A stretch of DNA of 57,552 bases from Bacteroidaceae bacterium (GTDB taxonomy: Bacteria; Bacteroidota; Bacteroidia; Bacteroidales; Bacteroidaceae). A program made the position numbers and the translations under genes. The number at the start of each line of letters is the position of its first letter. Within the stretch, counting starts at the first letter, position 1. This document shows, one piece after another, positions 30,660 to 50,297 of this stretch. Below the pieces are notes generated by a model. That model was not told the origin of the DNA and ran no database searches. It saw only the letters and a list, made by a program, of their open reading frames with translations. The DNA lies in the NCBI GenBank assembly GCA_017471185.1, contig JAFUVZ010000080.1:1-57552 (forward strand). The letters run 5' to 3'.

Positions 30660-31283
30660 ATGAAAGTACTGTTAGTAAACGGAAGCCCGCACAAGCAGGG
30701 CAACACATTCCTCGCACTGAGCGAAGTGGCAAAGACGCTTGAAAAGGAAGGCATTGACACTGAAATTGTTCACATCGGCCTGAAGCCCGTAAGGGGGTGC
30801 ATTGCCTGTGGCAAATGCAAGGAAAACATGGATGGCAAATGTGTGTTTGACGATGATGTATGCAACAGCATCTCCGCCAAGTTTGCGGAAGCTGACGCAT
30901 TCGTATTTGGCTCACCTGTGTATTATGGCCAGCCAAACGGAGCCTTGCTCTCCATCATGCAACGTGCGTTTTTCTCCAACGGAGCAAATGCGCAATACAA
31001 GCCGGCAGCAGCAGTGGCTGTGTGCCGTCGTGGCGGATCTACCGCAGCGTTCCAGACCATCAATATGCTGCTCGAGATGAACAATATGCCGTTGGTTACC
31101 TCACAATACTGGAACATCGTGTTTGGCAGGGAGCAAGGACAGGCGGCTTTAGATACTGAAGGCATGCAGACCATGCGCACGATGGCCCGCAATATGGCGT
31201 GGCTCCTGAAGAAGATACATCAGGACGGCAAGCCTGCATATCCAGAGGCAGAGCCTTGGCAACCGATGCATTTCATCAGGTAA
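30660..31283 (+). CDS. Flavodoxin-fold NAD(P)H-dependent reductase
   Basis: A 207-residue protein of the iron-sulfur-flavoprotein-like NADPH:FMN reductase family. VLLVNGSPHKQGNTF is the FMN phosphate loop, and GCIACGKCKENMDGKC carries the clustered cysteines. GSPVYYGQPNG is the second flavin-binding loop. Cytoplasmic. The true start is the ATG at 30660; a TTG lies nine bases upstream. It is 39 bp after the AraC gene and begins the redox cluster. Confidence 0.88.
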   Translation: MKVLLVNGSPHKQGNTFLALSEVAKTLEKEGIDTEIVHIGLKPVRGCIACGKCKENMDGKCVFDDDVCNSISAKFAEADAFVFGSPVYYGQPNGALLSIMQRAFFSNGANAQYKPAAAVAVCRRGGSTAAFQTINMLLEMNNMPLVTSQYWNIVFGREQGQAALDTEGMQTMRTMARNMAWLLKKIHQDGKPAYPEAEPWQPMHFIR

Positions 31284-31430
31284 GGAGCATTTCATCTCTC
31301 CCAACAGCATTTTGACTGAAATCTGCCCTCGCAGTCGCTTTATCCGTAAATATGGTAGGGAAATCAAGATTCTGTGTTAAAGATATACATGAAAGAAGAT
31401 GTACCAAGATTCCGTAAAATATGAAAAAAA

Positions 31431-31465
31431 CACCGCAGTTTTTGTGATTGCGGTGCTTTGTTTTT
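31431..31465 (+). terminator. Terminator-promoter junction a: CACCGCA stem
   Basis: CACCGCA (31431-31437) pairs with TGCGGTG (31449-31455) around an 11-nt loop, followed by TTTGTTTTT. It terminates the flavodoxin transcript and merges directly into the next promoter. The same stem recurs at 36724 and 45322. Confidence 0.7.
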
Positions 31466-31477
31466 CCTCTATCTTTG
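31447..31477 (+). promoter_or_regulatory. Promoter for the aldo/keto reductase at 31507
   Basis: ATTG at 31447-31450 and TATCTTTG at 31470-31477 with 19 bp between. The -33 box lies inside the right arm of the preceding hairpin. Confidence 0.6.
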
Positions 31478-31506
31478 CAAACAGAAAAACAATAAAAACA
31501 ACAGAT

Positions 31507-32355
31507 ATGCAGACAGTAATATTAAACAATGGCATTGAGATGCCGATTTTAGGGTATGGCGTGTTTCAGGTCAGCCCTGCGGAATGTGAAAGATGCGTAG
31601 CGGATGCTTTGAAGGTGGGCTATCGCCTAATAGACACTGCACAGGCATACCAGAATGAGGAAGGCGTGGGCAACGCAATCGCGAAAAGCGGCATAGACAG
31701 GAAAGAAATTTTTCTGGTTTCTAAAATATGGATGACAAACTATGGATACGAGAAAGCGAAAGCAAGCATAGACGAGAGCTTGCGCAAGTTGAAGACAGAT
31801 TACATCGACTTAATGCTGCTTCACCAGCCTTTCAACGATTATTACGGTGCTTACCGTGCATTGGAAGAGGCATATAAGGCAGGGAAACTGCGTGCCATCG
31901 GTGTATCAAACTTCTATCCTGACCGTCTGATTGACATCGCTCACAATGCAGAGATTGTACCTGCTGTGAACCAGGTGGAAACGCATGTGTTCCAACAGCA
32001 AGTGGAGGCGAAGAAGTATATGGATGAAATGGGTTGCCAGATTATGGCGTGGGGACCGTTGGCTGAGGGCAAGAACGGTTTCTTCACCAATGAGACCTTA
32101 ATTAATATAGGTAAGAAGTATGCCAAGACTGGTCCACAGGTGGCTCTGCGTTACCTCACCCAGCGTGGTGTGGTAGTGATACCGAAGTCAACACATATAG
32201 AGCGCATGGAGCAGAATCTCAACATCTTTGATTTTACCCTGACAGATGAGGACATGACTGAAATTCTGAAATTAGACACAGGCAAACCTGTGGTAATGCC
32301 AAGCCACCACAATCCGGAAATCGTGAAATACTTTATGCAGATGCTGCCGAAATAA
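31507..32355 (+). CDS. Aldo/keto reductase (cytoplasmic)
   Basis: A 282-residue NADPH-dependent reductase of the AKR5-like group (2,5-diketo-gluconate reductase type). The tetrad is visible: Asp and Tyr in DTAQAYQNEEG, Lys in LVSKIW and His in LLHQP; VIPKST is the cofactor-phosphate loop. I chose the ATG at 31507 because the promoter lies at 31447-31477; the longer frame begins upstream of it. It has no signal, unlike the Tat-type paralogues at 36794 and 40634. It is monocistronic, bounded by terminators. Confidence 0.9.
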   Translation: MQTVILNNGIEMPILGYGVFQVSPAECERCVADALKVGYRLIDTAQAYQNEEGVGNAIAKSGIDRKEIFLVSKIWMTNYGYEKAKASIDESLRKLKTDYIDLMLLHQPFNDYYGAYRALEEAYKAGKLRAIGVSNFYPDRLIDIAHNAEIVPAVNQVETHVFQQQVEAKKYMDEMGCQIMAWGPLAEGKNGFFTNETLINIGKKYAKTGPQVALRYLTQRGVVVIPKSTHIERMEQNLNIFDFTLTDEDMTEILKLDTGKPVVMPSHHNPEIVKYFMQMLPK

Positions 32356-32406
32356 AGGAAGGATATTCACACTGTATGTGACATTCTACAGTCAGATTTT
32401 ATTTAA

Positions 32407-32448
32407 AACTTCCGCCAAAAGTGAAAAAAGGGCGGAAGTTTTTCTTTT
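32407..32448 (+). terminator. Terminator-promoter junction b: CTTCCGCC stem
   Basis: AACTTCCGCC (32407-32416) pairs perfectly with GGCGGAAGTT (32431-32440), followed by TTTCTTTT. The last T's are part of the next promoter's TTTTG. The loop shares AAAGTGAAAAA with the hairpin at 39580. Confidence 0.75.
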
Positions 32449-32476
32449 GACAATTCTGAACGATGCAGTACCTTTG
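32445..32476 (+). promoter_or_regulatory. Promoter for the cupin-hydrolase-reductase operon
   Basis: TTTTG at 32445-32449, 19-bp spacer, TACCTTTG at 32469-32476, 22 bp before the ATG at 32499. Confidence 0.75.
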
Positions 32477-32498
32477 CAGAAAGGAAAAAAGAACGTTT

Positions 32499-33467
32499 AT
32501 GAAAAGAAACATTGTTTTAATAGGCATAATAGTGACAGCATCACTTTTGTCGGTAATGGCATATATAATAACGCAAGGAACTTATGCTCCAGTAGCAAAA
32601 GACACTCCCACATCCGGCAGGGTTCTGACGAAAGAGGAACTGTCATTTCCGTTGGGATTTCAGATTCCATCACCATCTTTCACTGGCCAGGCATTCATGA
32701 ACAACCTGATTACGAAAGATGACATTTACAACTTTCCACAGACAAACAACATCACCTTCGCTCCTGGTGCTCATAGCAGCTGGCACAGACACGGAGGCAT
32801 GATTCTGCTTGTGACCGGTGGCGTAGGCATTTATCAGGAAGAGGGGAAAAAGGCACAGATTATCAGAGAAGGTGACGTACTTCAGATTCCAGCAGGCGTA
32901 AGACATTGGCATGGAGCCGTAAAAGACAGCTGGTTTTCTCAAATTGTGATTTATGACAAGGACTGGCAGGGGGAAAATAATCCGAACGAAGACAACTCCT
33001 TGACGGACGAATACTATAATAGGCTGGAATTAGAGGAATACAGCGGACATGTGGCAGATAAGGGCGATTTCATGTTCCCTGTCTTTAAGGATGCGTTCAA
33101 CCTGCCGTCATTCAACGGCCCTATGTATATGGCCAACCTTTACGAAGAAGATAACGTGGCAGGCTCACCCGCCTTACATGAGGTGGGATTCGAAGCAGGC
33201 GTCATCAATCAATGGCACATCCATGAAGGCGGACAGATTTTGATAGCCACCAATGGAATAGGCTATCACCAGATAGAGGGTCAGCCCGTACAGGTGATGC
33301 ATCCTGGCGATGTGGCCTTGTGCCCTCCGGGTGTGAAGCATTGGCATGGAGCAGCTGCAGGAGGGCGTTTCGCTCATCTTGCCGCAAACACAAATCCGGA
33401 GAAGACTGGCCTTCAATGGTTTGATTTCATCAGCAAGGAAGAATATGATACATTACCCAAAGAATAA
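32499..33467 (+). CDS. Membrane-anchored double-cupin protein
   Basis: A 322-residue protein with an N-terminal hydrophobic segment (NIVLIGIIVTASLLSVMAYI) acting as signal or anchor. Two cupin domains follow: SSWHRHGGM with GVRHWHGA in the first, and INQWHIHEGG with GVKHWHGA in the second, giving two metal sites. Double cupins of this type are annotated near mandelonitrile-lyase-like and carboxymuconolactone-decarboxylase-like proteins. The ATG at 32499 follows the promoter. First gene of the operon with an alpha/beta hydrolase and an aldo/keto reductase. Reaction unknown. Confidence 0.85.
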   Translation: MKRNIVLIGIIVTASLLSVMAYIITQGTYAPVAKDTPTSGRVLTKEELSFPLGFQIPSPSFTGQAFMNNLITKDDIYNFPQTNNITFAPGAHSSWHRHGGMILLVTGGVGIYQEEGKKAQIIREGDVLQIPAGVRHWHGAVKDSWFSQIVIYDKDWQGENNPNEDNSLTDEYYNRLELEEYSGHVADKGDFMFPVFKDAFNLPSFNGPMYMANLYEEDNVAGSPALHEVGFEAGVINQWHIHEGGQILIATNGIGYHQIEGQPVQVMHPGDVALCPPGVKHWHGAAAGGRFAHLAANTNPEKTGLQWFDFISKEEYDTLPKE

Positions 33468-33492
33468 ATAATAACTAAAAACATTTATCATT

Positions 33493-34551
33493 ATGAAGAA
33501 ATCTTTTATACTGGTTATGGCTTGCGCCACCTTCATGGCATGTAACCAAAGCAATCAACCGAATGTACTCAACGGTATCATGATAGAGAAGCAGGGAGTG
33601 TTCTCTTCCGGAGGTCGAGTTACGGCCCCTATCCCTGGCGAGTATGACCCGACGCAGAACTGGCTTGACAATGACAGGAAAGGAACTACCACCCATGTGG
33701 ATCATGCCAATACATTCTATCAGATTCCAGCAGACGGGCAAGGCCTGCCTATGGTTTTCCTGCATGGTTACGGGCAAACCAGAACGGGATGGCAAGCTAC
33801 ACCAGACGGTCGTGAGGGATGGTCGGACATCTTCTTGAAAAAAGGACATCCTGTGTTCCTGGTTGACCAGCCACGCCGTGGAGCAGCCGGTGCTACAGAA
33901 GAAATCGTCAATAACCCAGGTGATGTAGCCGGTACTCGATTCAAGGTAGGTGAACAAGCCTGGTACACTCATTTCCGCATCGGGCGAGTGGCTCCTGAAA
34001 GATATGATGGCTCTCAGTTTCCTGAAGGTGAGGAAGCGCAAAGACAGTTCTTCTGCCAGATGACCCCAAACACAGGCAACTATGATGAAACTGTGTTCGG
34101 CAAGGCTTTGAGTGCCGTTCTGAAAGATGTGAAAGCCATGACGGGCAAGAAGAGCATCTATGTGACCCACTCTCAGGGAGGCCGTGTGGGTTGGGCAACC
34201 GACACTGACAATATGGCTGCCATCGTGGCCATAGAGCCAGGATTCGGCCCTCAGCTTGGTTCTGACACCTACCAGAAGTTTGTGGAAGCCAAAGTGCCCA
34301 TCCTGTTCCTCTTTGGCGACTATATCGAGAATGGTCCGGAGGATATTCAGTCAACGGGCTTCTGGCGCATGGTAATGCAGCAGTGCCGTGAATTTGCAGC
34401 ACAATACAATGCAGATGGTGGCAATGCAACAGTCGTTCATCTGCCAGATGTAGGCATCACAGGCAACAGCCACTTCATGTTCCAAGAGATGAACAATGAC
34501 GAGATAGCCGACATCGTTTCAAATTGGCTGCAGGAAAACGTACATGAATAA
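33493..34551 (+). CDS. Alpha/beta hydrolase lipoprotein
   Basis: A 352-residue lipoprotein (lipobox FMAC, Cys17). VFLHGYGQT forms the oxyanion loop and THSQGG the nucleophile elbow with Ser227. HFMFQEMNN near the end probably supplies the catalytic His. It resembles secreted esterases and epoxide-hydrolase-like enzymes of Bacteroidetes. It lies 25 bp after the cupin gene and 21 bp before the aldo/keto reductase gene, in one operon. Substrate unknown, probably an ester. Confidence 0.85.
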   Translation: MKKSFILVMACATFMACNQSNQPNVLNGIMIEKQGVFSSGGRVTAPIPGEYDPTQNWLDNDRKGTTTHVDHANTFYQIPADGQGLPMVFLHGYGQTRTGWQATPDGREGWSDIFLKKGHPVFLVDQPRRGAAGATEEIVNNPGDVAGTRFKVGEQAWYTHFRIGRVAPERYDGSQFPEGEEAQRQFFCQMTPNTGNYDETVFGKALSAVLKDVKAMTGKKSIYVTHSQGGRVGWATDTDNMAAIVAIEPGFGPQLGSDTYQKFVEAKVPILFLFGDYIENGPEDIQSTGFWRMVMQQCREFAAQYNADGGNATVVHLPDVGITGNSHFMFQEMNNDEIADIVSNWLQENVHE

Positions 34552-34572: not shown

Positions 34573-35574
34573 ATGCTTGCAAAAAGAAATATTGGCAATT
34601 TGGAAGTTTCTGCAGTGAGTCTGGGCTGCATGGGTATCAGTCACGCTTACGGCGAAGCATCTTCCAAGCAGGATGTAGCAGAACTGTTGGCTAAGGCCAT
34701 CGAAGTTGGCTATACCATGTTTGATACAGCAGAGGTGTATGGAACGGCTGACAATCCTCATCATAACGAGGAGTTACTGGGAGAGCTGCTAAAACCTTAC
34801 CGCAACCAGATAGTGATTGCGACAAAATGTGGCATTACTTTCGACAAAAGCTTCATAGGTAAAGGTACCATGCCACTGATTACAGACGGCAGCCCCAATG
34901 CCATCCGCGAGTCTATCGAAGGCTCATTACAAAGACTACAAACCGACCACATCGACTTGTATTACCAGCATCGTGTTGATCCTAAAGTGAAGCCAGAGAC
35001 GGTGGCAGAGACAATGGCTGAACTGATTAAAGAAGGGAAGATTCTGCATTGGGGCGTTTCAGAAGCAAGTGAAGAGTATATCCGCAGAGCGCACAAAGTT
35101 TGCCCTATTACGGCTGTTCAGATGAGATATTCCATGATGGCACGCTGGCATGAGGCACTCTTCCCCATCCTTGAAGAGTTGAACATCGGACTGGTGGCAT
35201 TCTCTCCATTGGCAAATGGCTTGCTGAGCAATAGTTATAAGCCAGACAGTCAGTTTGATGCAAAAACAGACTATCGTGCTTCCATGCCTCAGTTCAAAAA
35301 AGAAAGCTTTGAAAAGAACAAGGCTTTGTTTGACCTCATCAACCAATTGGCAACAGAAAAAGAGGCAACGCCTTCTCAAATATCTTTGGCTTGGATGCTT
35401 TGCAAGAAACCTTGGATTGTTCCTATCCCTGGCACTCGCAAGGTGACTCGTCTGATTGAGAATGCAGGGGCAGCAGCCATCCAGCTCTCAGCTGATGAAG
35501 TTAAGAATATCGACAAGGCTTTGGACGAGATGGAAATGAGCGACGTGTTCGGTGGTTCGAAAATCGTGAAGTAA
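34573..35574 (+). CDS. Aldo/keto reductase, YakC/AKR13-like
   Basis: A 333-residue reductase distinct in type from the others in the window. SLGCMGISHAYG is the entry motif, the tetrad residues are in DTAEVYG, IATKCG and YYQHRVD, and PIPGTRKVTRLIEN is the NADPH loop. The group includes perakine-reductase-like and YakC-like enzymes that reduce aldehydes or ketones. Cytoplasmic. Last gene of the cupin operon; no clear hairpin follows. Confidence 0.9.
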   Translation: MLAKRNIGNLEVSAVSLGCMGISHAYGEASSKQDVAELLAKAIEVGYTMFDTAEVYGTADNPHHNEELLGELLKPYRNQIVIATKCGITFDKSFIGKGTMPLITDGSPNAIRESIEGSLQRLQTDHIDLYYQHRVDPKVKPETVAETMAELIKEGKILHWGVSEASEEYIRRAHKVCPITAVQMRYSMMARWHEALFPILEELNIGLVAFSPLANGLLSNSYKPDSQFDAKTDYRASMPQFKKESFEKNKALFDLINQLATEKEATPSQISLAWMLCKKPWIVPIPGTRKVTRLIENAGAAAIQLSADEVKNIDKALDEMEMSDVFGGSKIVK

Positions 35575-35780: not shown

Positions 35781-36668
35781 ATGGGAATTAAAGCATTACA
35801 GGCTCCAGTTGAGCAGATTACATTTACTCCAGTGGTATTCGAGAACAAAGACTCACACTTGAAACTGGCTGGTATCGTTTATGCACCACGCAACATGAAA
35901 GCTGATGACAAACTTCCTGCAGTCATTGTGCAAGGTCCAATGGGGGCAGTAAAGGAACAATGTCAGACACTCTATGCCCAGTTTTTGGTTAGCCAAGGCT
36001 ATATCGCTATGGTTTATGACTATTCTTATATAGGAGCCAGCGAAGGACTGCCACGAGGCTATGAAGACCCAGAGGTAAAGGCCAGTGACATACTAAGTGC
36101 TGCCGAGTTCTTCAGTAATTATCCTAATGTTGATGCTAACCGTATGGCCGCAGTGGGTATCTGTGGATCTGGTGTTTATCTACCATTGGCCATGCTACAG
36201 GAATCAAAGATTAAAGCTTTTGTGTCAGTCAATCCCTTTACTGTTATCGACACTGTTCCATACGATGCGGAACAGATAGAGCGTGACCGTGCTGAATTTG
36301 AGGCAGGTGGTGATGCACGTCGCATTCCCAACATGATTGAACCTGATAGTGAGGGAGCCGAGTACTACTTCAATGCAGAGCGGGGATCAGTAACCAATCA
36401 GGTGTCTTTCGTCACGTGGTCTGTTCCCACATGGGCTAAGTTTCATCCGACAGAAATCGTGAAGGGTCTGACCAAACCATATCTTGTAGTTGTAGGAGAG
36501 AATGCATTCACCCGTCCTGGTGCTGAAGTGATGTTTGCAAACATAGGAAGCCAGGACAAGCAATTAGTAGTCATTCCTGGAGCTCGCCACTTCGACATGT
36601 ATGATGGCGAGGGGTTTGCTGATAAGTCAATAGCAGCTATTGTTGAGTTCTTGAGGGAGAAACTTTAA
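35781..36668 (+). CDS. YcjY/dienelactone-hydrolase-like protein
   Basis: A 295-residue alpha/beta hydrolase without a signal peptide. The nucleophile elbow reads VGICGSG, with Cys128 in the usual serine position as in dienelactone hydrolases and YcjY-like proteins. VIVQGPMG is the oxyanion loop, and the catalytic His is in GARHFDMYD. It is a single-gene unit: 206 bp of non-coding DNA precede it (a TAATTTTG box at 35719-35726 may be its -7) and a terminator follows. A lactone or ester substrate is likely. Confidence 0.85.
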   Translation: MGIKALQAPVEQITFTPVVFENKDSHLKLAGIVYAPRNMKADDKLPAVIVQGPMGAVKEQCQTLYAQFLVSQGYIAMVYDYSYIGASEGLPRGYEDPEVKASDILSAAEFFSNYPNVDANRMAAVGICGSGVYLPLAMLQESKIKAFVSVNPFTVIDTVPYDAEQIERDRAEFEAGGDARRIPNMIEPDSEGAEYYFNAERGSVTNQVSFVTWSVPTWAKFHPTEIVKGLTKPYLVVVGENAFTRPGAEVMFANIGSQDKQLVVIPGARHFDMYDGEGFADKSIAAIVEFLREKL

Positions 36669-36723: not shown

Positions 36724-36771
36724 ACACCGCATTTTTCGTAAGTGCGGTGTGTTTTTTTATCTATACCTTTG
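36724..36771 (+). terminator. Terminator-promoter junction c: ACACCGCA stem
   Basis: ACACCGCA (36724-36731) pairs with TGCGGTGT (36743-36750) around an 11-nt loop, followed by seven T's. TACCTTTG at 36764-36771 is the -7 box of the next unit, so terminator and promoter again touch. A clear -33 box is not seen. Confidence 0.65.
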
Positions 36772-36793: not shown

Positions 36794-37788
36794 ATGAACA
36801 GAAGAAATTTTCTAAGACTAATGACATTGGCTGCGGCAGGAAGCACAGTCTCCGGCAAAGTATTGGCCAATATGAATAAGTACATGAACATCATTGCTGA
36901 AAAGAATGGTGTACCATACGTTACGTTAAATAATGGCGTTGAGATGCCACAGTTAGGTTTAGGCACTTTCGCACAACCTTCCAATGAAGTGTGCCGCAAT
37001 TCAGTATTGGCTGCTTTGAATGCCGGCTTTAGACACATTGATACAGCTCATGGGTACAACGACGAACGCGGAGAGTAGGACAAGGTTTCAAGGATAGCGG
37101 TGTGGCTCGTGACCAAATCTGGTTAACAAGCAAACTATGGATTGGCGACTACGATAACGGAAAGACCCTGGAGAGCATTGATAAAATGCTTCAGCGCCTT
37201 CAAACCGACTATATTGACCTGCTTTATATACACCATCCAGTGGGCGAAGTAATTCCAGCCTGGCAGGCTATGGAAAAGGCAGTAGAGCAAGGTAAGGTAC
37301 GTGCCTTGGGTATCAGCAATTTCGATTATCCAGACAAGGTGGTACAAGACTATTTCCATGACATTTGTGAAAACCAGAAAATTAAACCACAGGTTATCCA
37401 GTTGGAATGCAACATCTATGCCCAGCGTAAGGATATGCGTGAGAAAATCAAACCCTACAATATTCAAATGGAATGCTGGTTTCCATTGGGTGGTATGATG
37501 GGCGTACAACGTCTTTCGCAAGACCCAGTTATTCAACAAATAGCAAAAGCTCATGGAAAGACTGCTGTGCAGACCATGTTGCGCTGGCACATTCAAGAAG
37601 GCTTTTCTGTGATTCCTGGCTCCAAGAATCCTGAGCACATCAAGGAAAACATCAATATCTTTAACTTTGAGTTAAGCGAAACAGAGATGAACCAGATTCG
37701 ATCTTTAAACATGGAAAAGCGTACCTTTGTCAGCAGCTACGACAGTGTAGAACAACGTCAACGTACTCGTCAGATAGACGATTTATAA
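36794..37788 (+). pseudogene. Tat-type aldo/keto reductase, frameshifted
   Basis: The first part begins MNRRNFLRLM, a twin-arginine signal, and runs through DTAHGYNDERG, holding the Asp and Tyr of the AKR tetrad, before a TAG at 37076. The second part, in another frame from about 37075 to 37788, continues with GQGFKDSGVARDQ and holds Lys (LTSKLW) and His (YIHHP). An extra GA in GGAGAGTAG explains the shift: removing it restores the expected GVGQG. The intact paralogue lies at 40634. This is a recent loss, a reversible slip, or a sequencing error. It is followed by an EFR1-type gene. Confidence 0.85.
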
Positions 37789-37821: not shown

Positions 37822-38691
37822 ATGAAAAGAAGGGATTTCATAAAATTTATGGCAGCAACAATGACAGCAACAGTTATAAGCTCAGAACTATTAGCTTCTT
37901 GCACTACAGAAAATGGAAGGAAAAGACTTGTTTTCTTCTTCACGGGTACAGGTAACAGCCTCTATGCAGCAAAGCAATTTAGCGATAACCCCATCAGCAT
38001 ACCGCAGGCTTTGAAGAGTGATAACCTGGTATTTGATGCCGATGAGATAGGTATCGTGTATCCGGTCTATGCACATACCCCTCCAAACATCGTGCGCGAC
38101 TTTCTGGATAAAGCAACACTAAATGCCCCTTATAAGTTTGCCATCGCTACCTTTGGCAATCGCAAGTGCAACAGCGTGGAGATTATTGACCACGTCGCAA
38201 AAAAGGCTGGGGTGAAGTTCGACTATATCACCACTATTAACATGGTTGACAACTTCTTGGTGGGATTTGACATGGATGAGCAAATCAAGCTGGACAAGCA
38301 CGAGGATGAGCAGCTGGCTCAGGCTGTGGCAGATGTGAATGAACAGAAACACTGGCATCAGCCTTTTACCGAGGAAGAGAGGCAAGTGCATATCCAACGC
38401 TTCGGCGACAACTATGATGCCAGGATGACAACAAACAGCAGCGGCGCATTCAAGATTGACAGAGATTTGTGCGTGGGTTGCGGATTCTGTACAAAAGTCT
38501 GTCCGCACAAGAACTATAAATTCACATCACAGGGCATCACGACTGATGGAAAATGTGAGATGTGCCTTTCATGCGTTCATAACTGTCCGCAAAAAGCCAT
38601 CAAGCTCAGCATGCCAGAGGTAAACCCTAATGCACGCTACCGCCATCCGAGAATTTCCATCAACGAAATAGTACGTGCTAATAGGCAATAA
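37822..38691 (+). CDS. EFR1-type flavodoxin-ferredoxin protein, Tat signal, copy 1
   Basis: A 289-residue protein joining a flavodoxin fold to a two-cluster ferredoxin. MKRRDFIKFM is a twin-arginine motif and LLASC gives a lipobox at Cys27, so it is probably exported folded and lipid-anchored. TGTGNS at 41-46 binds FMN phosphate. Two 4Fe-4S motifs follow: Cys217, 220, 223, 227 and Cys245, 248, 251, 255. The tail VNPNARYRHPRI is shared with the two other copies in the window. It would carry or transfer single electrons to a partner reductase. It lies 33 bp after the broken aldo/keto reductase gene. Confidence 0.88.
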   Translation: MKRRDFIKFMAATMTATVISSELLASCTTENGRKRLVFFFTGTGNSLYAAKQFSDNPISIPQALKSDNLVFDADEIGIVYPVYAHTPPNIVRDFLDKATLNAPYKFAIATFGNRKCNSVEIIDHVAKKAGVKFDYITTINMVDNFLVGFDMDEQIKLDKHEDEQLAQAVADVNEQKHWHQPFTEEERQVHIQRFGDNYDARMTTNSSGAFKIDRDLCVGCGFCTKVCPHKNYKFTSQGITTDGKCEMCLSCVHNCPQKAIKLSMPEVNPNARYRHPRISINEIVRANRQ

Positions 38692-43278: not shown

Positions 43279-44265
43279 ATGATCAGACTAACCACGATGG
43301 CAATATCCCTATTGTGTGCCTCAACCTGTTGGGGATGTAAGGCAAGTGCAGGAGATACAGAGGTAATCAATCCTGTAGTCACTTCACAGACATCGGATGG
43401 GCTGTTTTCAGGTGACAGCCGAATTTCCGACGTGATGGCGGATCCTGCTTTCAAAGGATTTGGCAGGCTTCTTTTTCCCGTAAACAATGGGTATTGGAGC
43501 GGTGACAGGCTGAAGGACTTACGCCTGACATGGTATAGCCATATTGACCCTGAGAAAACCGTGGAAATCGTGAATTATATATATACGAAGTCAAAAGATG
43601 GAGAAGCTGTTTTTCTCGACATTTATTCGGATGCCGAGAAAACAGCCAATCCAGACAAACGTAACACAGGACTCTTCTTTTTCAAAGGTAAGCCAGGAGC
43701 CAGATTTGCCATCTGTAATGCAGGCGGAGGATTTGCATACGTGGGAGCGATGCATGACAGTTTTCCCCATGCCTTGGAGCTTTCAAAGAAAGGCTACAAT
43801 GCATTCGCTCTCATATACCGTCCTGGAGCCCGGACGGCTTGCGAGGATCTGGCAAGGGCTATAAGCTATATTTTCAGCCATGCCGATGAGTTAGGGGTAT
43901 CTACCGAATGCTATTCCCTCTGGGGCGGATCGGCAGGTGCCAGGATGGCGGCTTGGCTGGGCTCTTACGGGCCAGCCTACTTCGGTGGAGACAACCTGCC
44001 TAAAGCCGGCACGGTAGTGATGCAATACACTGGACTGAGCGACTATTCACATAATGATCCTCCAACCTATGTCTGCGTGGGCAATCGTGACGGAATAGCC
44101 AGCTGGCACACCATGAAAGCCAGAGTAGAAGGCATGAGCCAGCTGGGCATTCCCACGGAGTTTCATGTATATGATGGCTTGCCCCACGGCTTTGGCTTGG
44201 GCACGGGCACTGTTGCAGAGGGTTGGATTGATGATGCCGTCAGGTTCTGGGAAAACAATAAATAA
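43279..44265 (+). CDS. Secreted alpha/beta hydrolase (HSL/BD-FAE-like)
   Basis: A 328-residue protein with an N-terminal signal ending near CWGCKA, which may be a lipobox. ICNAGGGFAYVG stands where HGGG-type enzymes have their oxyanion hole, WGGSAGARMAA is the nucleophile elbow, and GLPHGFGLG contains the catalytic His. Aspartate is probably in VGNRDGIAS. It resembles acetyl-xylan or feruloyl esterases of the BD-FAE type. Seven bases after the carboxylesterase stop. The C-terminal codons run into an AATAATGAATAA repeat. Confidence 0.85.
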   Translation: MIRLTTMAISLLCASTCWGCKASAGDTEVINPVVTSQTSDGLFSGDSRISDVMADPAFKGFGRLLFPVNNGYWSGDRLKDLRLTWYSHIDPEKTVEIVNYIYTKSKDGEAVFLDIYSDAEKTANPDKRNTGLFFFKGKPGARFAICNAGGGFAYVGAMHDSFPHALELSKKGYNAFALIYRPGARTACEDLARAISYIFSHADELGVSTECYSLWGGSAGARMAAWLGSYGPAYFGGDNLPKAGTVVMQYTGLSDYSHNDPPTYVCVGNRDGIASWHTMKARVEGMSQLGIPTEFHVYDGLPHGFGLGTGTVAEGWIDDAVRFWENNK

Positions 44266-44296: not shown

Positions 44297-45295
44297 ATGA
44301 AGACTACTTTTTTGATGATGGGCTTTTTGTGGGCAACTACCCTGAGTTGTTCAGCAAGCAATGAACAGACGACAAACAATGGCAATGATGTGATGACTTC
44401 TGTCTCAAATGAGAACGATGTGATCCAGAAAACTACCCCTGTGCCTGCCTCCTATTTTAATAAGGCGAACCTGCAAGGCAAGGTGGAACTCTTAGAATAT
44501 ACTTCCAAGGACTACACGAAATCAAGCAGACCTACTACGCACAAGCCTGCGTATGTTTATCTGCCATACGGCTATGACTCATCTAAGCAATACGACATCA
44601 TTTACCTCATTCACGGATGGGGAGGCAGGGCAGAACAATATTTCGCCATCGAAGACTGGCCTCAGATGAAAAACCTGTTTGACAACCTGATTGAGCATGG
44701 CGACACCAAGCCATTCATCGCCGTATCCCCTACTTGGGACAAGGATAACAGTGCCAAAGGTTGGGGCGAGTCGTGTCAGGAAGCAGAGGTGTTCTCACAA
44801 GAATATCTCAACGACTTGATACCAGCTGTGGAAAGTCATTATTCCACCTATGCCCAAACGACTGACCTGGATGGAATCCTCGCCTCTCGTGACCATCGTG
44901 CATTTGGAGGTTTCTCTTTGGGAAGCATCACCACTTGGTTCATCTTTGAGCAGGCTTTCCCTTATCAGAGATATTTCCTGCCTATGAGTGGCGATAACTG
45001 GCACGAAGAGATGTTTGGAGGGCAGACCAAACCCAAGGAAACGGCAGCATTCTTAGCATCTCTGGTAAACAGCTCTCCATATAAGGGTGATGGTTTTTAT
45101 ATATGGTATGCCGTAGGCGATGAGGATGTCCGTCTGCCTCAGACACACAATCAGGCACTTGCTATGGCTGCCTTATCAGATACTTTTAATGAGCAGAACT
45201 TCTCTTATCACCAGAAACCTGGCGGCAGGCACGACTTTAATGCCGTATGGGAATTCTGTTATCATGCATTGCCGTTCTTTTTTCCAAACAAATAA
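44297..45295 (+). CDS. CE1-type esterase lipoprotein
   Basis: A protein of about 332 residues with lipobox LSCS. YDIIYLIHGWGG is the oxyanion region, FGGFSLGS the nucleophile elbow and GGRHDFNAVW the catalytic His segment. This is the esterase-D/feruloyl/acetyl-xylan esterase fold, carbohydrate-esterase family 1 type. ATG 44297 precedes a normal signal peptide; an ATG at 44279 in AAT repeats would add six residues, mostly Asn. Third hydrolase in the operon and its last gene. Confidence 0.87.
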   Translation: MKTTFLMMGFLWATTLSCSASNEQTTNNGNDVMTSVSNENDVIQKTTPVPASYFNKANLQGKVELLEYTSKDYTKSSRPTTHKPAYVYLPYGYDSSKQYDIIYLIHGWGGRAEQYFAIEDWPQMKNLFDNLIEHGDTKPFIAVSPTWDKDNSAKGWGESCQEAEVFSQEYLNDLIPAVESHYSTYAQTTDLDGILASRDHRAFGGFSLGSITTWFIFEQAFPYQRYFLPMSGDNWHEEMFGGQTKPKETAAFLASLVNSSPYKGDGFYIWYAVGDEDVRLPQTHNQALAMAALSDTFNEQNFSYHQKPGGRHDFNAVWEFCYHALPFFFPNK

Positions 45296-45321: not shown

Positions 45322-45368
45322 GCACCGCAATAATTATTTCTGCGGTGCTTTTTTTCCCTTTACCTTTG
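45322..45368 (+). terminator. Terminator-promoter junction f: GCACCGCA stem
   Basis: GCACCGCA (45322-45329) pairs with TGCGGTGC (45341-45348), followed by T's. TACCTTTG at 45361-45368 is the next -7 box, 36 bp before the ATG at 45405. A partial extra copy, ACCGCAA, lies at 45303-45309. Confidence 0.72.
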
Positions 45369-45404: not shown

Positions 45405-45923
45405 ATGAAAAAGAATTTATTGAAGTCACTGCTCGTTGCAGCAGTCATGATGATCGGTATGAGTACCGCAAGTTACGCACAGTTCCAGAACTTTGAGAAC
45501 AAGACCCACACGCCAGAGGCGCAGCCGTTTGCTGATCTTTCACAGAAAATCTGGGACCTGATGGCAGAGAAGAACGCAGACGCACTGAAGGAAATCTTCC
45601 ATCCGAACGCCATGTTCGTACACATGGGTGGCTACTGGGGCACAGAGCAGGAGCTGGCTACCATCGGTGGTGGTTTTATCCACTACAAGCAGGCTGATGT
45701 TTATGGTGTGGATGTAAAGCAAATTAACGAGAACAATTGGGCTGTTTACAGCACTATCGTACTGGATGCCGTACTTGGTGGCGGACAAGGTGGTGGCAAC
45801 GATGTGATTACTCCGTTCTTCGTAACCCAGACATTTACCAAAGAGAATGGCAAATGGTTGCTCACCGCTTTTGTGTTCACGACACGTATGGGTGGCCCTG
45901 GAGCTGACCGAGCTAACCATTAA
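45405..45923 (+). CDS. Secreted NTF2-like (SnoaL/DUF4440) protein
   Basis: A 172-residue protein with a signal peptide ending ASYAQ. The cone-shaped NTF2 fold is indicated by MAEKNADALKEIFHPNAMFVHMGG and the closing beta strands NGKWLLTAFVFTTRMG. Such proteins may be small hydrolases, isomerases or binding proteins; no catalytic set is obvious. It heads an operon with a lipoprotein flavodoxin, EFR1 copy 3 and an iron alcohol dehydrogenase. Confidence 0.82.
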   Translation: MKKNLLKSLLVAAVMMIGMSTASYAQFQNFENKTHTPEAQPFADLSQKIWDLMAEKNADALKEIFHPNAMFVHMGGYWGTEQELATIGGGFIHYKQADVYGVDVKQINENNWAVYSTIVLDAVLGGGQGGGNDVITPFFVTQTFTKENGKWLLTAFVFTTRMGGPGADRANH

Positions 45924-45941
45924 TATATAAAGAATAATGTC

Positions 45942-46622
45942 ATGAAAAAGTTTCTTCTATTGATAGCTACCGCTTGCACCCTGACTACTATGGGTGCTTG
46001 CGGTTCATCTAATAAGCAAGGGAGTAGTAATGATCTCGGAGAGCAGTACAAGATCAACTTCTCTGAGGAAAGTGTAAACCCAAAGCCTAACAAGAAGGTG
46101 CTGGTCATCTCGGCAAGTCCACGCCGTGGAGGCAATACAGACTTACTGTCAGACGAGTTTATCAGAGGTGCCCAGGAAATGGGCGCACAAGTAGAGAAAG
46201 TTTTCTTAGGTGACTACGATATTAAGTTTTATACTGAGCCGGAAACTGAGCCTGGACAACCCATCCAATGGCCACAGGACGACGCCCAAATGATTACTGA
46301 CAAGATGGTGGATGCTGATGTAATTGTTCTGGCAAGCCCAGTGTATTTCATGAACATAGACGGGCAGATGAAGGCATTGATAGACCGTACCTTCAGCCGT
46401 TTCATGGAGATCAAGGACAAGGAATTCTTCTACATTACAGCTTGTGCAGATCCTATTGACAGTACCGCCATGCGTGCCATCGACGGATTCCGTGGCTTCG
46501 TGATGTGTCTGCCCAATCCAACGGAACGTGGTATGGTAAAGGCCATCGGCATGGGACGAAAAGGAGGAGTGAAGGGCAGTCAGTTCATGACCCAAGCGTA
46601 TGAGTTAGGTAAAAAAGTTTAA
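45942..46622 (+). CDS. Flavodoxin-fold reductase as a lipoprotein
   Basis: A 226-residue protein. MGAC is a lipobox at about Cys20, then a linker, then a flavodoxin fold: VLVISASPRRGGNTD is the FMN phosphate loop and LASPVYFMNIDGQMK the second loop. The cysteine cluster of the cytoplasmic relative at 30660 is absent. A Sec lipobox on a flavoprotein is unusual since FMN would have to be bound after export. It follows the NTF2-like gene by 18 bp and precedes EFR1 copy 3. Confidence 0.85.
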   Translation: MKKFLLLIATACTLTTMGACGSSNKQGSSNDLGEQYKINFSEESVNPKPNKKVLVISASPRRGGNTDLLSDEFIRGAQEMGAQVEKVFLGDYDIKFYTEPETEPGQPIQWPQDDAQMITDKMVDADVIVLASPVYFMNIDGQMKALIDRTFSRFMEIKDKEFFYITACADPIDSTAMRAIDGFRGFVMCLPNPTERGMVKAIGMGRKGGVKGSQFMTQAYELGKKV

Positions 46623-46659: not shown

Positions 46660-47565
46660 ATGACTACGCTGAAGACAATGACAAGAAGGGAAGCCCTGAG
46701 AAACATGGGACTCCTCGCTGCTGGCTCGTTTATGCTCACTAACGGCTTTCTGAGTTCATGCACACAGAGAACAGATAAAAAGCGTTTGGTATTCTATTTC
46801 ACGGCTTCAGGCAACAGTCTGTATGTGGCCAAGCACCTCAGCGAAAAACCCATCAGCATACCCCAGGTGTTGCAAGGTGACCAGCTGGAATTTGAGGCTG
46901 ATGAAATAGGACTGGTGTTCCCAGATTACCAAGGCAAGGCACCGAGCATCGTGCAAGAGTTTGCCCAAAAGGTGAAGTTGAAAGCCAAATATATGTTCAG
47001 TGTCATCACCTATGGCCTCGACAACTGCCTTGTGACGGAGCTTTGGGCTGAATATGCCAAGCAATACAACTGGGAGTTCAACTATATCAACGTGGTGTTG
47101 ATGCAGGATGTCTATCTCCCCATGTTCGACCAGGACCAGCAGCGCACATTGTATGACCAGAAGGACGAGGAAGGACAAATAGCCAAAGTTGTGGAAGACA
47201 TCAACTCACGCAGGGAATGGATATATGAAATCAGTCCGGAAGCCCACCAACGAGGCGAGATGATCATGAATATGGTTTCGAGGAATCCAATATACCCAGC
47301 CAGGAGCGAACAGCTCTTGCGTATTGACGAAGACCTGTGCATCGGTTGTGGCACCTGCCTGAACGTATGCCCCAAGAAGTGCTTCAGCTATGGTAACAGA
47401 GGCTTAACCAACAACGGAGAGTGCGCCTACTGTCTGGCGTGTGCCAACAACTGTCCTCAGAAAGCCATCAAGCTGGTGAACAGAGAGGCCAACCCTAACG
47501 CACGCTATCGTCATCCGAAGATTACGTTGCCGGAGATTGTCCGTTCTAATATTCAGCATTCATAA
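46660..47565 (+). CDS. EFR1-type flavodoxin-ferredoxin protein, Tat signal, copy 3
   Basis: A 301-residue paralogue, most similar to copy 2. MTRREALRNMGLLAAG is the twin-arginine signal and SSC the lipobox (Cys34). The FMN loop reads TASGNS, with Ala in place of Gly. 4Fe-4S cysteines occupy the same positions as copy 2 (227-237 and 255-265). It lies 37 bp after the flavodoxin gene and 26 bp before the iron alcohol dehydrogenase gene, so a flavodoxin and a dehydrogenase are its likely partners. Confidence 0.9.
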   Translation: MTTLKTMTRREALRNMGLLAAGSFMLTNGFLSSCTQRTDKKRLVFYFTASGNSLYVAKHLSEKPISIPQVLQGDQLEFEADEIGLVFPDYQGKAPSIVQEFAQKVKLKAKYMFSVITYGLDNCLVTELWAEYAKQYNWEFNYINVVLMQDVYLPMFDQDQQRTLYDQKDEEGQIAKVVEDINSRREWIYEISPEAHQRGEMIMNMVSRNPIYPARSEQLLRIDEDLCIGCGTCLNVCPKKCFSYGNRGLTNNGECAYCLACANNCPQKAIKLVNREANPNARYRHPKITLPEIVRSNIQHS

Positions 47566-47591
47566 TCGGCTTGCCATACAATCTACGAGAC

Positions 47592-48752
47592 ATGGATAAA
47601 TTCAATTATACATACCCCATTCACGTTTATTTCGGGCAAGGATGCATGGAGGAGTCCTTACGCAAGGAATTAAAGTCTGTGGGTAAGCATGTGATGCTTG
47701 CCTATGGCGGAGGCTCTTTAAAGCGCACTGGTCTTTACGATAAGATTATGAGCATCTTACGGGAAGAAAGCAAGGAAGTTATTGAGTTCAGTGGCATCAT
47801 GCCCAACCCCACCTATGCCAAAGTACAGGAGGGAGCCCGTCTGGCTCGGGAAAAACAGATTGACTTCATCCTGGCTGTGGGCGGTGGCTCTGTGTCAGAC
47901 TGTTGTAAGATTGTCTCCGCACAAGCCTTGCTTGATGAGGATATCTGGGAGATGGAAAACACCCACAGGCGTTTCCCTACCCGATTCATCCCGATGGGCA
48001 TAATCGTCACCGCATCCGGCACAGGGTCTGAGCAGAATGCTGGAGCCGTAATCACGCATGAGGAAAAGAAACTGAAGAATGCCTTGTGGGGTGCTTTAGC
48101 TACCTTTGCCATCCTTGATGCCGACCTCACCAAGACGGTTCCCATGAAGCAGGTCATTTCCGGGGCGTTCGACACCTTGAGCCATTGCATGGAAACTTAT
48201 TTCGGCAAGCCATCTTCAAGCAATGTGTCTGACGAAATCAACGAGGCCATCATGCGTAATGTGATACGAAACATGAGGTCTATCAAGCGGAATCCAGATG
48301 ACGACTTCGCACGTGGCGAACTGATGTGGGATGCCGCTATGGGAGAAAACGGACTGTTGAAATTAGGCAAGGTGACTGATTTCCAATGCCATATGATAGA
48401 GCATCAGTTAGGGGCCTTTACCGATTGCAACCACGGACAAGGCCTGGCAGCAATACATCCTGCCCTGTATCGTTATCTCATCACTTACAACCTTGAAAAG
48501 TTCGTGTGTTTTGCAGAAGAGGTATGGTGTGTGGAAAGGATGAACAAGACACTTGAAGAGATAGCCAATGACGGCATTGACGCATTAGCCGACTTTATCA
48601 GCGAGATGGGATTGCCTATCACTTTGAGCGCGATGGGAATTACTGATGAAAACATCCTGCGTCAAGTGGCAGACACCACCATCATTACCCCCGGATGTTG
48701 CAAACAGCTCACCCCTGATGAGATTTTCGACATATTGGTAGCCAGCAAATAA
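47592..48752 (+). CDS. Iron-containing alcohol dehydrogenase (YqhD/BDH-like)
   Basis: A 386-residue group-III alcohol dehydrogenase. FILAVGGGSVSD and SGTGSEQN are the NADPH-binding blocks; metal ligands are in LDADLT, FDTLSHCMETYF, HMIEHQLGAFTDCNHGQG. The family reduces short aldehydes with broad specificity. ATG 47592 is used because the longer frame starts with TTG. No signal, so cytoplasmic, although its operon mates are exported. Last gene of the NTF2 operon. Confidence 0.92.
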   Translation: MDKFNYTYPIHVYFGQGCMEESLRKELKSVGKHVMLAYGGGSLKRTGLYDKIMSILREESKEVIEFSGIMPNPTYAKVQEGARLAREKQIDFILAVGGGSVSDCCKIVSAQALLDEDIWEMENTHRRFPTRFIPMGIIVTASGTGSEQNAGAVITHEEKKLKNALWGALATFAILDADLTKTVPMKQVISGAFDTLSHCMETYFGKPSSSNVSDEINEAIMRNVIRNMRSIKRNPDDDFARGELMWDAAMGENGLLKLGKVTDFQCHMIEHQLGAFTDCNHGQGLAAIHPALYRYLITYNLEKFVCFAEEVWCVERMNKTLEEIANDGIDALADFISEMGLPITLSAMGITDENILRQVADTTIITPGCCKQLTPDEIFDILVASK

Positions 48753-48770
48753 GCTTACTTCAATACTTTT

Positions 48771-48819
48771 CAAAAAAAATATCCCTGACTATCTGATTCT
48801 TTCAGTTAGCCAGGGATAT
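48771..48819 (-). terminator. Intrinsic terminator of the deglycosidase-like pair
   Basis: ATATCCCTG (48779-48787) pairs with CAGGGATAT (48811-48819). On the minus strand the stem is followed by a run of eight or nine T's, so it ends the transcript of the gene at 48840. It may also help end the + transcript from 48752. Confidence 0.8.
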
Positions 48820-48839
48820 CAGTTTTATATAGACGGCTC

Positions 48840-49280
48840 TTATACGATGAGCAATCTCCTTTCGTTGTGAATATGTCCGAATTCCACCAGATAGACGGTT
48901 TCTTCCTTATCCGGCTGCATCAGCTCTTCCAACATAGGTGGCATATATGAGTGGGTGCAGGCGTAGCTGTACTTCAGATCATGATACCCCTGCTTCAAGC
49001 CACCGGGCTTATCAACAATCAGGGTAACCAATTCCAGCGGATTCCAATGCACATTTCCAGACTTCAGCATCTCCTGCCAGGTATAGTCGGAACCATTCAA
49101 ACGCCACAGGATATGGTCTTTGGTGATTTCCTCACCATCAACAACGATAGAGCCAACCTTTACCTGGCTCAAGAACACGCCTCTATAATAAGGTAAACGA
49201 ATCTTCAGCTGGAAGCCGGTAACCTTGCCCCCTTCGCTGATATTCCTGAATCCTACAGATTGTATAACTTGTTTCTCCAT
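48840..49280 (-). CDS. C-glycoside deglycosidase beta-subunit-like protein (DUF6379)
   Basis: A 146-residue beta-rich protein without signal peptide. The blocks YRGVFLSQVKVGSIVVDGEE, WRLNGSDYTWQEM and KPGGLKQGYHDLK, ending in SYMPP, match the small subunit of C-glycoside deglycosidases (CGDB domain). In that complex the beta subunit packs on a TIM-barrel alpha subunit that cleaves C-C glycosidic bonds of 3-keto-C-glycosides such as those of plant flavonoids. Its gene follows a TIM-barrel gene by 18 bp, the expected order. The third component, a sugar 3-oxidase, is not in the window. Confidence 0.82.
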   Translation of the reverse strand: MEKQVIQSVGFRNISEGGKVTGFQLKIRLPYYRGVFLSQVKVGSIVVDGEEITKDHILWRLNGSDYTWQEMLKSGNVHWNPLELVTLIVDKPGGLKQGYHDLKYSYACTHSYMPPMLEELMQPDKEETVYLVEFGHIHNERRLLIV

Positions 49281-49298
49281 AAAGTTTCCTCCTACGTT

Positions 49299-50297
49299 TT
49301 AATCACCCAAAATTCTCTTCATCATGATGTGTTGCTTGCGCAAGGTCTGACCCACTTCATAACCCTGGTCATACTTATCGCTACCTTCATATTCGCTGAG
49401 CAAGTAACCGTTCCAATTGTGGTCAATCATGATTTTCAACACTTCTTCGTATGGAATCTCTGTCTCTTTAAAATCGTCGCTCATGTGGAACAACTTAGCG
49501 TGACAGCAATAGATATATGGCAACAGAGGTATTATATCCTCTGGTTTGCTGTAGAAAGCTGTCTGACCTGGAGTCTCACGGCCACGAGTTGTACGGAACA
49601 CACTGAAGTCTATGTTCAAGCCGAAGTTCTTGGTCCCAGTCTTCTTGATGAAATCGACATAATCATTGATAAAACCTTCAGTCAAGCTCGATGGTGTATG
49701 AATTTCAGGCAACATCACCAAGCCAAGACGCTCTGCCAAAGGTAACGCCTTGATGATGATATCTTGCCAGTTATCGATAGGAGCCAACTGACCGTCCTTC
49801 ACCGTCATCTTGGTACGTAGGAATTTAAAGCCCAGTCGATGAGCCAGATAAAGGTCACGGCTCAGGAACTCAACCGCCTCATCAACATCCAACAAACGAT
49901 TTTGATACAAGCGGCAATCCAACCAATGGCCATACTCTACTGGCTCAATATCGTACTTACGACACAGCGACCACCAGTAGTTGATCCATTCCTCAGTAGG
50001 GTAAGGATAGTTGGCGATATGGGCATTTGCCAGGATCTCAATGCCATGGGCGCCCATGTCGCATACGTCTTCGAAACAATCTTCCAGATTCTTCTCAAAG
50101 CCGAACTCAGCTGAATAACTGTAGAATGAAACGCCTCTCTTCGGTCCTTTGCGGACAGCGGGAGCAGCTTCAGAAATCTCCCCCTGGCTGGCAGAAGCTG
50201 CTTTCATAGATCCAGGCAAGACACTTGCCATCGCAACTGCAGAAGCGCCACGCAGGAAATTTCTTCGTGAAATGTGATTCTCTTTCATGTCTTTCAT
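49299..50297 (-). CDS. C-glycoside deglycosidase alpha-subunit-like TIM barrel with Tat signal
   Basis: A 332-residue sugar-phosphate isomerase/epimerase-fold protein. [17 protein letters not shown] is a clear twin-arginine signal. The barrel starts [16 protein letters not shown], and a metal set is suggested by Glu198 (LPEIHTP), Asp230 (NIDFS), His266 (CCHAKLF) and Glu302 (LLSEYEG). Paired with the DUF6379 gene, it is best read as the alpha subunit of a C-deglycosidase-like enzyme. Known alpha subunits are cytoplasmic, so a Tat signal here is unusual. A generic exported xylose-isomerase-like protein is the alternative. Start could also be the ATG at 50288. Confidence 0.78.

Follow-up and report, generated by a model that had tools for sequence, protein, structure and literature searches.

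An Exported Set of Flavodoxin-Ferredoxins and Aldo/Keto Reductases in a Bacteroidaceae Genome and Its Possible Role in Carbonyl Reduction

Reductases that depend on NAD(P)H are usually regarded as cytoplasmic enzymes. Can such enzymes be exported as a set, and where would their electrons then come from? A gene cluster on contig JAFUVZ010000080.1 (assembly GCA_017471185.1) of a Bacteroidaceae bacterium raises this question, and the whole contig of 57,552 nucleotides (the window) was analysed here; the host genome assembly comprises 2.76 Mb and is 80% complete. An earlier reading of the bare sequence, here called the original prediction, described six twin-arginine translocation (Tat)-type signals in the cluster and a surface or periplasmic system that de-esterifies and reduces its substrates. 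As judged from sequence, the Tat signals and the exported set were confirmed. EFR1-type flavodoxin-ferredoxins and aldo/keto reductases (AKRs) carry export signals that are kept among their relatives, and the exported AKRs form a single clade with an altered cofactor pocket. Our tentative answer is that the plus-strand genes at 29811-48752 would form a two-compartment module for carbonyl reduction.

Export signals on the EFR1 proteins and reductases

The following genes carry the argument.

31507..32355, plus strand: AKR-cyt1, DkgA-like cytoplasmic aldo/keto reductase, likely start 31507, Lys/Arg pair kept
36794..37788, plus strand: AKRtatA, Tat-signal AKR5-type reductase, frame broken (stop at 37076-37078, rest in another frame)
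37822..38691, plus strand: EFR1a, Tat-lipoprotein flavodoxin/ferredoxin (NF038196 179 bits; KRRDFIK...LASC)
39674..40579, plus strand: EFR1b, Tat-lipoprotein flavodoxin/ferredoxin (NF038196 149.7 bits; TRREALK...SSC)
40634..41674, plus strand: AKRtatB, Tat-signal AKR5-type reductase (DYKH tetrad, PGS...H cofactor motif)
45942..46622, plus strand: FMNred2, lipoprotein FMN_red flavoprotein (PF03358 78.1 bits; ...TMGAC)
46660..47565, plus strand: EFR1c, Tat-lipoprotein flavodoxin/ferredoxin (NF038196 156 bits; model pLDDT 89)

The EFR1 assignments of the original prediction held: EFR1a, EFR1b and EFR1c scored 179, 150 and 156 bits against NF038196 (cut-off 75), and the proteins have eight Cys for two 4Fe-4S clusters together with a flavodoxin fold. 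Flavin mononucleotide (FMN) plus two clusters suits one- to two-electron transfer. A fold search matched only the flavodoxin part of EFR1 and gave no functional lead. The lipoprotein flavodoxin proposed for this cluster was recovered as FMNred2. Among named records, the closest EFR1 and AKR matches were Bacteroidales and Bacteroidaceae metagenome-assembled genomes (MAGs); the titles of two name sheep rumen and goat reticulum.

Tat-like starts were found in 6 of the 48 window genes (three EFR1 proteins, two AKRs and a TIM barrel), the same six as predicted, by a rule combining the motif with a hydrophobic core; this rule was written after the six starts had been seen, and shuffled N-termini predict 0.04. 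All signal classes given here come from simple rules of our own, not SignalP, and the N-termini of hydrolases and lipoproteins were judged by eye. At its cut-off, model TIGR01409 recognised a single window protein, the TIM barrel, and relaxing it to E<=1 added the genes at 36794 and 37822; because the other three are missed even at that threshold, half of the six calls depend on motif and conservation. We regard conservation across homologues as the stronger test of these putative signals. The set of EFR1 proteins comprised 54 distinct sequences, the three of the window included, of which 42 had an N-terminal extension of at least 25 residues. Twin arginines were kept in 41 of these 42 (consensus RR-x-(A/F/V)-(L/I)-(K/R)), near-invariant where many other signal positions vary, and a lipobox-like site was present in 33. 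The 12 proteins lacking the extension had no signal; eight come from records titled Clostridia-type bacteria (L030-L032, L034-L038; L-numbers denote the loci, or DNA stretches, compared, several of them short, and G-numbers the genomes compared) and one from an MAG labelled Muribaculaceae (L033).

The host genome encodes TatC (E 3.9e-58), the absence of which had been named as a point that would count against the original prediction, and a TatA-like ORF (open reading frame), recognised by eye, adjoins tatC. Across 251 genomes of the family, TatC was present in all 21 that are EFR1-positive and in 180 of the 230 others (Fisher p 0.0075), a count that includes G121, with an unsignalled EFR1 (L089), and G175, with a contig-edge fragment, and that is not corrected for MAG completeness.

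Export did not extend to the whole cluster. The idea that cofactor enzymes are exported together stood for the EFR1/AKR set, and failed for FMNred1, AKR-cyt2 (34573), ABH2 (35781) and Fe-ADH (47592), which had no signal, and for the AKR ORF at 31399. Export of the latter was rejected: its upstream extension consists of a hairpin and a promoter-like box, the cytoplasmic motif is kept, and the most likely start of AKR-cyt1 is 31507, 37 bases after the beginning of the promoter-like box TATCTTTG. Our first rule set had classed the hydrophobic stretch of 31399 as a general secretory signal ('SEC') and was overruled by hand.

The exported reductase clade, its neighbours and a candidate electron source

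Of the two Tat-signal AKRs that had been proposed, both retained their signals, and the first (36794) turned out to be frame-broken, with a stop ending at 37078 and the DY and KH of its catalytic tetrad on separate pieces; intact homologues exist. A tree of 37 AKR rows comprised 21 exported proteins, a cytoplasmic sister clade of 15, and a cytoplasmic protein (L112) beside the exported clade. The tree took no rows shorter than 240 aa, which removed both AKRtatA pieces and the L033 and L073 fragments, and no exact duplicates; near-copies stayed in, L083 and L118 being nearly identical. The exported proteins formed one clade with support 99/96, in which 17 rows had general secretory (Sec) signals and the four Tat rows, the window lineage, were nested among them; relatives of AKRtatB in other Bacteroidales mostly bear an ordinary Sec signal. 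Export therefore appears to have been kept while its route went from Sec to Tat, a direction that assumes the cytoplasmic AKRs as outgroup.

The DYKH tetrad was kept in 21 of 21 exported rows and in AKR-cyt1; one cytoplasmic row, L083_7247, had DYKY. The Lys/Arg pair for the 2'-phosphate of NADPH was absent from all 21 exported AKRs, present in AKR-cyt1, and found in 15 of 15 rows of the cytoplasmic sister clade. Its place was taken by Gly/His in the four Tat rows and Gly/Tyr in the 17 Sec rows, and the closest cytoplasmic relative, L112, had Lys and His and fitted neither group. The second residue at the phosphate site thus tracks the export route, as His in the four Tat AKRs and Tyr in the seventeen Sec AKRs. 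The tail of AKRtatB scored 60.0 bits with PDB entry 1M9H, which we take to be a version made to use NADH, vs 52.7 bits with 1A80. According to the redesign table of PMC4580623, K232G and R238H, again Gly/His, separate 1M9H from 1A80, both entries for 2,5-diketo-gluconate reductase. Both AKR-cyt1 (234 bits) and AKRtatB (206 bits) missed the cut-off of the DkgA model, 425 bits. Together the residues suggest that the phosphate of NADPH is no longer recognised by the exported AKRs, which probably hold NAD(H) or else receive hydride equivalents from EFR1.

Do the two families belong together? A match to the exported AKR profile (E<=1e-100) was found in 16 of the 251 genomes, 15 signalled and one, G163 (L112), unsignalled. 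Exported-type AKR and EFR1 occurred together in 8 genomes, where 1.3 were expected (p 5e-6, or 3e-6 when G163 is left out); these p values are not corrected for kinship, and genus g13 weighs heavily in them. An EFR1 gene lay at most 120 bases from an exported-type AKR in six Bacteroidota loci (L023, L082, L083, L085, L118 and the window), of which L083 and L118 are near-copies. The same spacing was found in L032, L035, L036 and L037, where both proteins are unsignalled. Near EFR1 in L079, L082, L083 and L085 we also observed Sec-signalled carboxymuconolactone decarboxylase-cupin fusions (by Pfam on L082, by BLAST on the others), and these four loci have exported Flavodoxin_4-like proteins too.

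The original prediction had electrons supplied by exported ferredoxin-like proteins, which is plausible as an inferred route, and related loci add a likely membrane source. In six of them (L023 and L025, both Parabacteroides, of P. bouchesdurhonensis and P. faecis type respectively; L029, Akkermansiaceae; L078, L079 and L117) a membrane polyferredoxin accompanied EFR1 and directly adjoined it, save in L025, where two genes lie between; one of these (L025:11453-12649, Parabacteroides faecis) encodes a zinc alcohol dehydrogenase whose signal is Sec-like. A domain search of L025 and L078 gave Fer4_5 membrane segments and several 4Fe-4S domains, with a C-terminal 4Fe-4S; an RRxFL segment ahead of a weaker hydrophobic stretch was present in 6/6 loci, and the L078 copy is divided between two reading frames. 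In five of the six loci the polyferredoxin was followed by an AKR with a 4Fe-4S domain at its C-terminus; the L117 stretch ends inside the polyferredoxin gene. Four of these five AKRs had RR starts (L023, L025, L078, L079), and in L029 the ORF call runs on upstream. The run in L079 reads EFR1, polyferredoxin, Tat-signalled AKR with 4Fe-4S, Sec-signalled AKR. In the host genome, a Tat-signalled AKR of this fused type lies directly downstream of a polyferredoxin piece on contig C55.

These proteins resemble a NapH-NapG fusion polyferredoxin that needs both Sec and Tat (PMC5449189), with which they share the Fer4_5 part, the RRxFL segment and the C-terminal 4Fe-4S. They differ from it in their linkage to EFR1 and exported AKRs, and the portions of that paper covered here name Bacteroidetes only for a different family. 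On these sequence features, a NapHG-type polyferredoxin is the likely electron source for EFR1 in the related loci. Counted by eye, at least 21 of 80 family genomes have the gene for this polyferredoxin no more than about 3 kb away from tatC.

Other genes of the cluster and the adjacent deglycosidase pair

All genes at 29811-48752 lay on the plus strand: two AraC-family regulators, three EFR1 proteins, two cytoplasmic and two Tat-signal AKRs (one broken), a bicupin, five hydrolases, a DUF4440 protein, two FMN_red flavoproteins (one a lipoprotein) and a YqhD-like iron-containing alcohol dehydrogenase (Fe-ADH). Those not listed above are as follows.

29811..30620, plus strand: AraC1, AraC-family regulator (HTH_18)
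30660..31283, plus strand: FMNred1, cytoplasmic FMN_red flavoprotein (PF03358 102.7 bits, no signal)
32499..33467, plus strand: bicupin with N-terminal membrane segment (NF049940 183.7 bits, cut-off 140)
33493..34551, plus strand: ABH1, lipoprotein alpha/beta hydrolase (PF12697; N-terminus MKKSFILVMACATFMAC, signal by eye)
34573..35574, plus strand: AKR-cyt2, second cytoplasmic aldo/keto reductase (family match, no signal)
35781..36668, plus strand: ABH2, cytoplasmic alpha/beta hydrolase (family match, no signal)
38760..39569, plus strand: AraC2, second AraC-family regulator (family match)
41682..43271, plus strand: secreted type-B carboxylesterase, COesterase (PF00135 325.8 bits)
43279..44265, plus strand: lipoprotein BD-FAE/Abhydrolase_3 esterase (family match, N-terminus by eye)
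44297..45295, plus strand: lipoprotein Esterase (PF00756; N-terminus by eye)
45405..45923, plus strand: secreted DUF4440 protein (PF14534)
47592..48752, plus strand: iron-containing alcohol dehydrogenase (Fe-ADH), YqhD-like, cytoplasmic (PRK15138 237.5 bits, cut-off 645)

The membrane cupin and the secreted or lipoprotein esterases of the original prediction are all here, the former as a membrane-anchored bicupin above its model cut-off and the latter as the COesterase, BD-FAE, Esterase and ABH1 families, with N-termini read by eye. Fe-ADH missed the YqhD cut-off and is hence called YqhD-like only. The best model of the AraC regulator was HpaA, far below its cut-off (58 vs 275 bits), and AraC1 orthologues also adjoin EFR1 in L020-L022, L024, L027, L076, L077 and L080.

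Five cassettes, each made up of a GC-rich hairpin, a T-run and a TAnCTTTG box, stood just before AKR-cyt1, the cupin, AKRtatA, EFR1b and DUF4440.

31431..31477, plus strand: cassette 1, CACCGCA-N11-TGCGGTG hairpin, T-run, TATCTTTG box
32406..32476, plus strand: cassette 2, CTTCCGCC hairpin, T-run, TACCTTTG box
36724..36771, plus strand: cassette 3, CACCGCA-N11-TGCGGTG hairpin, T-run, TACCTTTG box
39580..39647, plus strand: cassette 4, CTTCCGCA hairpin, T-run, TACCTTTG box
45322..45368, plus strand: cassette 5, CACCGCA-N11-TGCGGTG hairpin, T-run, TACCTTTG box

The hairpin is identical in cassettes 1, 3 and 5. A scan for hairpin plus box found only these five in the window and 8 matches in 26 related loci, one of which, in L026, places a hairpin nearly identical to that of cassette 4 upstream of an AKRtatB orthologue. 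Since a T-run follows each hairpin, the cassettes may be terminators before promoters, or they may be operator sites; a terminator scan with a loop limit listed two of the five. Their sharing is a hint, and only that, of possible co-regulation. A whole-genome regulon was rejected: CCGCA-N11-TGCGG occurred five times genome-wide, three times within the cluster, and of the two sites outside, L125 lies inside a coding ORF and L121 had no TAnnTTTG box in the 200 bases downstream, as judged by eye.

Beyond Fe-ADH, on the other strand, lies the TIM barrel that had been counted as part of the same system.

48840..49280, minus strand: C-glycoside deglycosidase beta subunit, 146 aa, no signal (PF19906 124 bits; DfgB 7bvs_B E 4e-55)
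49299..50297, minus strand: C-glycoside deglycosidase alpha, TIM barrel, Tat signal (DfgA 7bvs_A E 3e-132; TIGR01409 and PF10518 over cut-off)

Its Tat signal was borne out. The adjacent alpha TIM barrel and PF19906 beta subunit matched DfgA and DfgB over nearly their full length and form a DfgAB-type pair. A single system including this TIM barrel was rejected, on account of the opposite strand, the beta partner of its own and a different distribution. Deglycosidase matches (E<=1e-40) occurred in 2/251 family genomes and 2/393 genomes of the order, the host counted in both, and the sole other family genome (G073, one of 250) had no EFR1 match at the same threshold. The G073 pair has the same gene order, with a Tat signal on alpha only; an Oxidored_FMN/Pyr_redox gene of the old yellow enzyme type also lies near it (L090, 4573-6522). 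The alpha gene of G495 is interrupted and has RK in place of RR in its signal, and beta is again unsignalled.

DfgAB of Eubacterium cellulosolvens is an alpha4-beta4 complex that cleaves C-C bonds (PMC8563793), and the window pair is alike in its alpha and beta subunits. It differs from DfgAB and EuCGD in the Tat signal on alpha; the words 'signal' and 'periplasm' are absent from the main text of PMC8563793. As alpha is signalled and beta is not, co-export of the complex is suggested, with beta possibly hitchhiking on alpha through Tat. Such a hitchhiker mechanism is described for PaoABC (in the part of PMC4273604 covered here). For comparison only, Bacteroides sp. MANG is named in PMC12101588, in the text covered, as a converter of the C-glycoside mangiferin. 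No 3-oxidising partner of the Gfo/Idh/MocA family was seen beside the pair. Tat-signalled Gfo/Idh/MocA oxidoreductases occur elsewhere in the host genome (L002, L005, L006 and L007; L002 beside an RR-start TIM barrel), and these loci are likely a separate exported set for sugar oxidation. The Tat-signalled deglycosidase stands apart from the cluster as a case in which co-export of an unsignalled subunit can be tested directly.

A two-compartment reading, its rivals and its meaning

Computation gave us the families and signals, the conserved export, the missing phosphate pair and the gene linkage, and from these we infer cofactor state, electron route, reaction direction and substrates. With confidence somewhat short of even, we read the genes at 29811-48752 as a two-compartment carbonyl-reduction module, for detoxification or fermentation, with electrons passing from quinol via polyferredoxin to EFR1. 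In an inner arm, the DkgA-like AKR, the second AKR, the YqhD-like Fe-ADH and the FMN reductase would use NAD(P)H in the cytoplasm. In an outer arm, Tat-exported EFR1 lipoproteins, with FMN and two 4Fe-4S clusters, would pass electrons to the exported AKRs and the lipoprotein flavoprotein. Electrons would enter from menaquinol, most likely via a Sec/Tat polyferredoxin of NapHG type whose gene lies at another place in the genome, and the secreted esterases would release or process carbonyl substrates. The broader proposal that Bacteroidota run AKRs outside the inner membrane on respiratory electrons, from menaquinol through NapHG-type polyferredoxin, then either EFR1 or a fused 4Fe-4S domain, and on to an NADPH-blind AKR, is more doubtful still.

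Known systems cover parts of this scheme. DkgA and YqhD of E. coli are cytoplasmic. The aldehyde-reduction operon YqhC-YqhD-DkgA (PMC8262776, as far as covered) likewise combines such an AKR and Fe-ADH with a regulator gene, which in the window is AraC-family; it is NADPH-dependent, whereas the window adds an exported set with EFR1, and both window enzymes fall far below the model cut-offs. Extracytosolic flavinylated electron-transfer systems also perform extramembrane redox chemistry with flavin carriers (PMC8238504, PMC11334425), and the sections of PMC8238504 covered have no mention of aldo-keto, keto reductase, twin-arginine or EFR1. Also close are the Tat-signalled AKRs with C-terminal 4Fe-4S (own genome, L003, L008), in which an exported AKR is likewise wired to Fe-S; there the Fe-S domain is fused to the AKR, and the window encodes the two separately. 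By analogy the module may be a variant of known periplasmic reductases driven by the respiratory chain. Limited keyword searches of the literature found no exported AKR clade with a changed pocket, no EFR1-AKR combination and no periplasmic carbonyl respiration, and a search on twin-arginine, keto reductase, Bacteroidetes and periplasm gave no title on exported AKRs among the matches listed. None of the protein families is itself new; their combination, and an exported AKR clade whose pocket has changed, would be.

Several observations weigh against the respiratory module. EFR1 L023_9989, the sole exception among the 42 extended proteins, has QR for RR, and it is the EFR1 nearest to the AKR in that locus. 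The other three of the 12 unsignalled EFR1-like proteins are distant relatives from the same order or genus (L089, L119, L120), and L089 is the EFR1 of G121, one of the 21 EFR1-positive genomes. The gene set expected in relatives was recovered in part: an exported-type AKR was found in only 11 of 39 Bacteroidota EFR1 loci, within the stretch compared, and was missing in 28, and any AKR5 was missing in 27, several stretches being short. The window itself contains no polyferredoxin, and the host genome has two pieces at contig ends (C82:4-408 and C55:2-472). Polyferredoxin (E<=1e-20) occurred in 20/21 EFR1 genomes and in 40/59 controls, and because it is so common where EFR1 is lacking it is a general feature of the family rather than specific to EFR1. 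Since all exported AKRs belong to one clade, their pocket may have changed just once. Finally, Sec-exported AKRs would cross the membrane unfolded and cofactor-free, and the periplasm is not expected to contain free NAD(H).

The rival that fares best, though improbable in our view, is the catabolic one of the original prediction, in which plant phenolic esters or glycosides are de-esterified and reduced outside the cytoplasm. The several secreted esterases (COesterase, BD-FAE and Esterase families), the deglycosidase next door and the HpaA match of the AraC regulator, weak as it is, would all suit it. In G073, though, the deglycosidase occurs without an EFR1 match (E<=1e-40), no transporter or ring-reducing gene was recognised at 29811-48752, and family names do not fix substrates, the aromatic or glycosidic reading being a guess from those names. 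Somewhat less probable is the reverse direction of flow, in which exported AKR and alcohol dehydrogenase oxidise alcohols or sugars and EFR1 and polyferredoxin pass the electrons to the quinone pool. AKR and alcohol dehydrogenase reactions are reversible, low-potential Fe-S carriers can run either way, and L025 has its exported zinc enzyme in the same gene run. Against this, the cytoplasmic members of these families are reductases, and NapGH-type proteins act as quinol dehydrogenases (PMC5449189, as far as covered).

Equally unlikely is a version in which NAD(H) stays bound to the exported AKRs as a prosthetic group and these enzymes dismutate two substrates, EFR1 being an unrelated neighbour. 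Glucose-fructose oxidoreductase of Zymomonas dismutates two substrates with fixed NADP in this manner. The 27 of 39 EFR1 loci with no AKR5 in the stretch compared would fit, and the change from Sec to Tat in the window lineage would permit export of a cofactor-loaded enzyme; but EFR1-AKR adjacency recurs in two phyla and in both compartments, and Sec-exported AKRs could not take a cofactor across. That the RR starts are non-functional and the proteins stay inside is highly improbable: the TIGR01409 misses and an EFR1 +2 residue that is mostly Ala (39/42) instead of Phe would favour it, but RR is near-invariant while much of the remaining signal drifts, tatC and the lipobox-like sites are present, and AKR relatives carry plain Sec signals.

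The carbonyl-reduction module is the reading we prefer, and its interest is that a whole AKR clade bears export signals, an altered pocket and Fe-S carrier neighbours, in some relatives with a likely quinol-linked source. The broader respiratory proposal, if right, would amount to periplasmic carbonyl respiration or detoxification, with an AKR that switched from Sec to Tat in one lineage. The closeness of polyferredoxin to tatC in many genomes suggests that carbonyl reduction would then be one job of Tat in this family. Gut Bacteroidota would reduce carbonyls of dietary, drug or host origin at the cell envelope, with respiratory electrons.

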